This document shows, piece after piece, positions 2,418-4,291 of a DNA stretch of 64,000 nt (position 1 is the first letter of the stretch; every line of letters starts with the position of its first letter). Made by a program: the position numbers and the translations under genes. Below the pieces are notes generated by a model that did not search any database, was not told where the DNA came from, and saw nothing but the letters and a program-made list of their open reading frames with translations. The DNA lies in contig JAQGBZ010000214.1 of the NCBI GenBank assembly GCA_034687125.1, forward strand, positions 1-64,000. The letters are read 5' to 3'. This stretch comes from Neelides folsomi (taxonomy: Eukaryota > Arthropoda > Collembola > Neelipleona > Neelidae).

Positions 2418-3103
2418 TCAGCCACCATGCAATGTTGAAATGAACGAGATGACGTCATTTTCTTTTAATTTGTAATCCAATTTATCCTGAATTTCAAAAA
2501 TTAAACATTATGTAAGTTTATTATTATTTAGCATTGAAACTGTATAATTTTTACCATTAGTTCCCAGTCAGTATCATTAATTAGAACAAGTACGCCTGGC
2601 CGTCTTTGACAAATACAAATTAGTACTCAAAGTCAAAATTTAATCATAAAATATAATATTCTAAAACAAATTTACAAGCAACTTACATATCGTTATCTTT
2701 TATTAAAAGTTCTGGTCTTTCGGTTAACATATTTCCTTTCATCCAGTCTAAAAGCCCAACCATATTCACTGAAAGAAACATTTTCAAAGGTTATTCATGA
2801 ATTATTTAAATGTAATATATGTTCGGGAAATATCAATAATTTATATTCAGATAAATATCCAAACATTGATCCGAATAAGGAATGTTGATGATTTTTTCTC
2901 GTACATCTCCAACTAATTTTTCAGCTCCTCCTCTATAAACCATTAAATCACACACATTTAAAATTAAAATCAAAAAGCATAAAAGGTCAATTATTAATTA
3001 TATAATGTAAGTATGTTACAATTTATAAAATCTATTTTGAATGTTATTCTATTTACCCAAATGATAATGTGATTGTCAACATTGACTTTCCTACCGTCTT
3101 CAT
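2418..3103 (-). CDS. URM1: URM1, ubiquitin-related modifier 1 (tRNA thiolation sulfur carrier)
   Basis: Ubiquitin-like protein that carries a C-terminal thiocarboxylate. It supplies sulfur for 2-thiolation of wobble U34 in tRNA Lys/Glu/Gln and can also be conjugated to proteins. Exons in coding order: 3103-3057, 2932-2865, 2768-2687, 2603-2555, 2486-2418; 104 aa (human 101). Family blocks are clear: LSFGGGAEKLV in exons 1-2, LLDWMKGNMLTERPELLI in exon 3, RPGVLVLINDTDWEL in exon 4 and FISTLHGG at the very end. The terminal Gly-Gly, required for thiocarboxylation, is exact. The exon 2 donor is a weak GTTTGG, but the phase and alignment support it. Two in-frame ATGs (3103 and 3082) could start the protein; I chose the outer one. 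The reading frame stays open upstream of the ATG to an acceptor at 3122-3123, so this may be the C-terminal half of a product joined to FTSJ1. Confidence 0.9.
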
Positions 3104-3147
3104 CTTTGCTTCCTTATTAGCCTGTATAAACATTAGATTCGATTAGT

Positions 3148-4291
3148 CTATAATTGTTTATAAAAATTTTGTAAAGTAAGTAAATGTAATTTAAAACATT
3201 TTAGTACATTCGAAGTTGCAAGAGTATTTGACTTTCTCATTGCGACTGCTTCAAGATATGGAGGATCAATTGGTCCCTGAACAGGTTGAAGAGATTTATA
3301 ATTTGGATCAGAAATGGAATAGGTCGTGTCAGAATCGAAACCATCAAGATCTCCACATGCGACATATCGAATAATGTTTTCATCTTTTTTATCCAGATTT
3401 TGAAAGAAAACTTCATTAGAAAAGGGGTCATATAGACGAGGTGTAAAGTTGTCAGGAAGTTTAAACTTTCTTGCGAGTACAAAACTAAATAAAAAAGTGA
3501 ACCACAATGTTAGACTCAATTACAAGATTACTGCTGTTATTGGTTAGTTATGAAAATAATTCTTCGTTACAATATTTACCATTCAATGCTTGATGCTCTA
3601 CTGCTCCTTGGCTTTGTGATTATCACGTCTTCAAAAAATATGCTCACTTTACTGAACATACTGTCAATTCCATCGGCTGAAGCTCGGAAGAACTTGGCTA
3701 AGAAAGTTCCTCCAGGTGAAAGAATGAGAGTTGAAATATTGAGAGCTGCAAGTAACAATTGGGCTTGTAAATATTCATCAAGTTGATGAAGTCCGGTCAC
3801 ATCGGGTGCTCCATCGCATACAACAATGTCGGCTTTTTTATCTCCAAGGCTTGAGATGATTTCGAGAGCAGTGGATTCTTTCGTGATGTCTCCTTGAATG
3901 CATTTGACTCCAGCAATTGGAGACATTGCTTGTAAATCAACAGCTACAATGAAATTTTGTCCTTGTTCTGCAGTGCTTTTTAGTGATTGAGCAAGAACTT
4001 GACTCCAACTTCCTGGAGCTGCACAAAGATCAACTGCTCGCGTAACTCCATTAAAAAGATCAAATTGATTCGCAATTTGAAGAAGCTTGAATGCACTTCT
4101 GGCTCTCCAACCTTCTTCCTTCGCCAATCTGAAAAAATGTTTTAATGTTTTATAAAAATATTAAATCCATATACTATTTAAAATGAATTCACTGTTGAAA
4201 TTTATATTTAAGTTAACTTTAACTCGTATACAGGTATTTAAGTGCTTTACCTGTAAAATATGTCTCTCTTATCTTTTGATGATCTTCCCAT
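3148..4291 (-). CDS. FTSJ1: FTSJ1/TRM7, tRNA 2'-O-ribose methyltransferase (positions 32/34)
   Basis: SAM-dependent RrmJ/FtsJ-family enzyme that 2'-O-methylates the anticodon loop of cytosolic tRNAs. Exons in coding order: 4291-4251, 4128-3580, 3484-3208. The protein starts [20 protein letters not shown]. The SAM site ([14 protein letters not shown]) spans residues about 46-59. The catalytic K-D-K-E tetrad reads K28, D119 (VVCDGAPD), K159 (FLAKFFR) and E196 (SSIEC, at the exon 2/3 junction). Two ends are possible. Reading on through exon 3 adds 19 unconserved residues to a stop at 3148-3150 (308 aa). Splicing at 3207 (AAT|GTACTA) leads in frame into the URM1 exon at 3121. Human FTSJ1 is about 329 aa, so the core is complete by residue 289. 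The gene is in tandem with SERF upstream and URM1 downstream. Confidence 0.92.

Follow-up and report, generated by a model that had tools for sequence, protein, structure and literature searches.

A probable in-frame fusion of FTSJ1 and URM1, two genes of tRNA anticodon-loop modification, in the collembolan Neelides folsomi

Natural ubiquitin fusions, for example that of ubiquitin with a ribosomal protein, carry ubiquitin first in the chain, from which it is cut off after its Gly-Gly. To our knowledge, the two anticodon-loop modification pathways considered here, that of the methyltransferase FTSJ1 (Trm7 in yeast) and that of the ubiquitin-related modifier URM1, are known as separate proteins only. 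No literature was found in which FTSJ1, URM1 and fusion occur together as whole words, and no such fusion is present in the titles and abstract beginnings among the matches listed for Urm1 with FtsJ, Trm7, or gene fusion plus tRNA thiolation.

The targets of the two pathways have been described in yeast, where, in a passage of one report, Urm1 serves tRNA-Lys, tRNA-Gln and tRNA-Glu (PMC6109124) and, in a passage of another, the methylation missing in trm7 mutants is that of tRNA-Phe (PMC7599136). Because the targets named in these passages differ, a shared substrate offers no obvious reason for a fusion. From a biochemical point of view, HA-Urm1 and TAP-Urm1 are described in part of a further report as still forming conjugates in yeast (PMC7016264), so that an N-terminal partner on URM1 should be tolerable in principle, the N-terminal position of the tags being taken from the names of the constructs.

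The genome analysed here comprises 75.1 Mb in 840 contigs, and the window, that is, the whole stretch of 64,000 nucleotides under analysis, lies on contig C214. Its minus strand carries an FTSJ1/TRM7 gene of three exons and, directly downstream, a URM1 gene with a Gly-Gly end; both genes are complete and can be joined in one frame. The features of the locus are listed below, with the basis of each in brackets.

4251-4291, minus strand: FTSJ1 exon 1, with ATG at 4291-4289 (translation; human FTSJ1 match from residue 1)
3580-4128, minus strand: FTSJ1 exon 2, the FtsJ methyltransferase core (Pfam FtsJ at 21-204; identity to human and yeast 57% and 50%)
3208-3484, minus strand: FTSJ1 exon 3, the conserved C-terminal part to residue 288/289 (human and yeast chain alignment; coding score)
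3122-3207, minus strand: proposed intron of 86 nt between FTSJ1 and URM1, GTACTA...ATACAG (GC 0.19)
3148-3207, minus strand: alternative if unspliced, a 19-codon FTSJ1 tail with TAG stop (coding log-odds -19.9)
3133-3147, minus strand: alternative FTSJ1 terminal exon, ACT AAT CGA ATC TAA, or TNRI-stop (sequence)
3057-3121, minus strand: joint exon, with the linker ANKEAK, the URM1 ATG at 3103-3101 and then MKTVGKSMLTITLSF (translation; yeast Urm1 alignment)
2865-2932, minus strand: URM1 exon (Pfam Urm1; translation)
2687-2768, minus strand: URM1 exon (Pfam Urm1; translation)
2555-2603, minus strand: URM1 exon (Pfam Urm1; translation)
2418-2486, minus strand: last URM1 exon, ending STLHGG-TGA (Pfam Urm1; translation)

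The last two URM1 exons were taken from homology, both being predicted wrongly by the gene finder, and polyadenylation words are found downstream of URM1 at 2364 (ATTAAA) and 2268 (AATAAA). As for the neighbourhood, a SERF-like gene (PF04419; 4922-5211, minus strand) lies upstream of FTSJ1 and a PC4/SUB1 coactivator gene (PF02229; 5918-6689, plus strand) is divergent from it. On the other side, a gene end at 1820-2205 on the plus strand is convergent with URM1, with a stop-to-stop distance of about 210 nt; this gene gave no Pfam match and presumably resembles AIMP2. In the same assembly the mitochondrial contig, C742 (15.2 kb), holds its protein genes in what we take to be the ancestral arthropod order, and ARAGORN found one tRNA on it. 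Its cox1 and cox2 frames are separated by only about 30 nt, which leaves no room for a tRNA gene, and we read this arrangement as evidence against insects and crustaceans.

The identities of the two genes, their order, their phase and the free Gly-Gly end had been named correctly in an earlier sequence-only reading, as the Pfam domains and the translation confirm. The FtsJ domain (PF01728, E 1.7e-49) covers residues 21-204 of the 399-aa product, and the Urm1 domain, a beta-grasp (PF09138, E 6.4e-31), covers residues 306-399; the query of the Pfam and structure-chain searches differed from the spliced product at one URM1 residue, with M in place of I (DND[I]RPG). The FTSJ1 half is of TRM7 type and full length, and resembles FTSJ1 more closely than it does SPB1 or MRM2: its best match is human FTSJ1 (8y2o, E 3.4e-95; 57% identity), followed by yeast Trm7 (6jp6, 1.4e-77; 50% identity) and SPB1 (1.7e-40). 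The alignments with human FTSJ1 and yeast Trm7 reach query residue 288, which leaves a single residue ahead of the donor, and in the three-row alignment K28, D119, K159 and E196 are invariant, columns that we take to be the K-D-K-E catalytic tetrad. A THADA/Trm732-like partner is also encoded in the genome, with three matches to PF10350 on contig C221 (best 55.9 bits, cut-off 27).

The URM1 half ends in ...STLHGG-stop, with Gly-Gly free. Residue 1 of yeast Urm1 (2pko) aligns to fusion residue 303, and the matching Met is encoded at 3082. The Urm1 family has a single match in the genome, at the last exon of this gene, and the DNA of the locus holds no second one. A CTU1-like tRNA thiolase gene, with ATP_bind_3 and the zinc ribbon zn-ribbon_14, is found at C103:46990-47286 and its flanks, while CTU2 gave no match in a genome search in which no control matched either. 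As far as residues can tell, both halves retain what their families require, namely the FtsJ core residues and the free Gly-Gly.

When position 3208 is joined to 3121, translation yields a single frame of 399 amino acids (289 + ANKEAK + 104) without internal stop, which bears out the proposal that the frame of FTSJ1 exon 3 can run on through ANKEAK into the URM1 ATG. The intron so removed, of 86 nt, had been called typical for neighbouring genes, and the six other introns of the locus do measure 68-124 nt; the GC content is 0.19 in the spacer, 0.18-0.26 in the other introns and 0.36 in FTSJ1 exon 3. The open in-phase joint had also been offered as an argument for fusion, but this argument is weak, such a joint being close to what chance would give. 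In a control in which the 104-nt spacer was swapped for 4310 real noncoding sequences of the genome (2155 stretches, both strands), some in-frame GT-AG fusion splice was possible in 65.8%, and in 56.3% of the 1822 spacers with GC 0.15-0.32; an open frame across the joint, being this common, was set aside as proof.

What is unusual is the quality of the splice pair, since a donor-plus-acceptor score equal to or above that of the real pair occurs in 1.9% of the spacers in either set, and this is due to the acceptor at 3121 and not to the donor. The acceptor, ATACAG, beats 98.3% of the 10719 AG sites of contig C1. The donor, AAT/GTACTA, is weak: it stands at the 27th percentile among 157 introns when the locus is part of the training set and at the 14th among 111 when it is not, and about 20% of the 9137 GT sites on C1 score as high. 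Its weakness does not exclude it, because the URM1 donor AAT/GTTTGG, required by homology, is similarly weak (16th percentile with the locus in training, 21st without). The AAG at 3112 is also an in-frame acceptor and scores 2.98 against 5.5 for 3121. ATACAG is not, as had been stated, the next acceptor after 3208: ATTATAG comes earlier, and an exon from 3147 gives FTSJ1 a stop of its own. This stop overlaps an ATG in the URM1 frame as TAATG (3135-3131, minus strand; MFIQANKEAKMKTVGKS...), possibly a site of termination and reinitiation, or possibly chance.

The coding signal of FTSJ1 fades at the donor. Under the self-trained gene model, the coding score accumulated along exon 3 reaches its maximum at 3248, stays about flat until 3210 and falls steadily beyond. 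The unspliced frame continues for 19 more codons to the TAG at 3150-3148, 44 nt ahead of the URM1 ATG, and the 60 nt through this TAG score -19.9 nats for coding against noncoding. The lowest score among 283 coding windows used as control, -5.6, is far above that value, although high scores are favoured in this set, whose windows were picked by the same kind of model from gene structures of the model's own, in eight genes with Pfam hits, one of them (SMC_N) under the curated cut-off. The tail is likewise lower than all of 12 gene ends, some of them chosen by recognising the protein without a family search: ten score from -1.2 to +8.3, and two others, whose exons measure just 8 and 14 nt and had to be scaled up, score -13.2 and -9.5. 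Values at or below -18 are found in 1.3% of 2972 open noncoding windows, and since the tail is thus extreme even among noncoding DNA, simple AT-richness accounts for part of its score. The spacer is unlike coding sequence; the model cannot separate intron from intergenic DNA in it (-0.77, not more intron-like), and the ANKEAK linker shows no coding signal (+0.44 with the locus in training, -1.28 with the locus left out).

Entire gene structures were compared in the same model, for which about 270 kb had served as self-training data. The fused parse, scored after training without the locus, exceeds two unspliced genes by 21.7 nats, or by 13.65 without the gene-start penalty. Merging of neighbours is a usual error of gene models, and for this reason the locus was left out of training and a tandem control was made, while the model's raw preference for merging was set aside as proof. 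For the control, 9 gene ends were combined with 7 starts, URM1's own among them, into 63 artificial tandem pairs, which are therefore not independent; 47 of these permit a fused parse, with 2 above zero and a best value of 5.7. Among 18 gaps between same-strand neighbours in the model's own gene set, only one, of 71 bp, is shorter than 600 bp, so that a gap of 30-44 nt between independent genes would be unusual. No AATAAA or ATTAAA is found from the FTSJ1 end down to 2704, and an ATTAAA lies about 54 nt past the URM1 stop; this evidence is weak, such words being absent within 250 nt of the stop in 2 of 6 other predicted genes, and the missing word of FTSJ1 was set aside as proof of fusion.

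The strongest rival, which we nonetheless judge unlikely, consists of two adjacent genes, in which FTSJ1 would end through a 60-nt intron (3207-3148) and the TNRI-stop exon (3147-3133), and URM1 would use its own start or reinitiation at TAATG on the same mRNA. The required ATTATAG acceptor exists, its AG supplied by the TAG at 3150-3148, an in-frame stop follows after four codons, and 13 of the 111 predicted introns are of 60 nt or less. The start context of the URM1 ATG at 3103 is good (1.59, against -0.2 for that of FTSJ1 itself), which counts against fusion because it is expected of a real start. When the second gene start is free, that is, at zero gene-start penalty, this parse ties with the fusion in likelihood (-137.07 vs -145.23 + 8.01); once the chance of a gene start at each base is set between 1/10 and 1/3000, however, its share within the model is 8% to <0.1%. 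Moreover, its acceptor scores 3.04 against 5.77 for 3121 (5.2 against 5.5 with the locus in the model), and only about 30 nt would be left for both the 3' end of FTSJ1 and the start of URM1. If the two adjacent genes were instead unspliced, a 308-aa FTSJ1 would run to the TAG at 3150-3148, as far as which the frame is open, and URM1 would start 44 nt further on from its own promoter, for which the TATAAA at 3162 could serve; the URM1 start context suits this arrangement too, and the tail of human FTSJ1 is also unconserved (a chain of 347 residues, aligned to 307). The 19-codon tail, under every control window and gene end, speaks against it, and we regard it as quite improbable.

In nematode operons, downstream genes are released by spliced-leader trans-splicing, and a comparable arrangement here would consist of one precursor from which URM1 is released at 3121, an acceptor that precedes the URM1 ATG by 18 nt. 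Trans-splicing would be expected to show a strong acceptor before the downstream ATG and a weak donor, as is the case here, and the spacer is short. Yet among the acceptors lying up to 80 nt upstream of 7 other gene starts the best, 65 nt away, scores 5.6 and falls short of 5.77, so that trans-splicing is apparently not general in this genome, and the 26 nt from stop to acceptor would hardly accommodate a polyadenylation signal. The literature that names spliced leaders together with tardigrades is no guide, its titles and abstract beginnings describing no tardigrade spliced leader. For spliced-leader RNA genes, an Rfam search covering the window gave no match. Of the accounts weighed here, we give this one the lowest probability.

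We therefore hold, with somewhat better than even confidence, that one spliced message reads through FTSJ1 and URM1, and that its product is a probable, if unproven, fusion protein; the posteriors hold only within the model, and this overall estimate allows for the simplicity of the model. A single transcription unit would start at FTSJ1 and end past URM1, and removal of the intron at 3207-3122 would produce one mRNA for the 399-aa protein. In order, this would comprise the FTSJ1 tRNA 2'-O-methyltransferase at residues 1-289, then a short linker rich in lysine, about ANKEAKMKTVGKS, and finally URM1, whose Gly-Gly end would be left free for thiocarboxylation. We infer that the splice is used and that the fusion is a main product, in which URM1 would still act as a sulfur carrier despite the partner at its N-terminus. 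It is plausible that an isoform with FTSJ1 alone, from retention of the intron or use of acceptor 3147, occurs alongside the fusion, and the ATG of URM1 may in addition give rise to the free protein. It is conceivable, but rather unlikely in our estimate, that in a fixed fusion the handling of this intron (removed, kept, or ended at 3147) switches between a bifunctional protein and FTSJ1 alone, tying the supply of the sulfur carrier to the 2'-O-methyltransferase, so that both wobble modifications would be set by one splice decision.

The earlier proposal of a functional fusion, or of an operon on the way to one, is thus supported in part: the statistics of splicing and of coding speak for a fused message rather than for independent genes; a functional partnership, and with it any joint function of the two halves, is speculation, and an origin by co-expression or by drift is as likely. 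No related locus was confirmed by queries with FTSJ1, URM1 and the FTSJ1 alignment in a viral contig collection, or with the alignment in a prokaryotic one. Provided that it is real, the fusion would offer a natural case of URM1 joined to another protein with its Gly-Gly free, presenting a sulfur-carrier ubiquitin-like protein as the C-terminal domain of another enzyme, and two anticodon-loop modification pathways would be physically linked.

Compared with FTSJ1 and yeast TRM7, which methylate tRNA at C32 and N34, the first half is colinear up to the conserved C-terminus, but here the conserved part ends without a stop and may be spliced onward into URM1. As in the URM1 modifier, the second half has a full Urm1 domain and the C-terminal Gly-Gly, with the difference that an N-terminal partner of 295 residues would be attached. 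The ubiquitin-ribosomal protein fusions offer the closest likeness in architecture, a ubiquitin-fold protein in one chain with another protein; unlike in those, URM1 would stand last, with its Gly-Gly already free and no cutting required.
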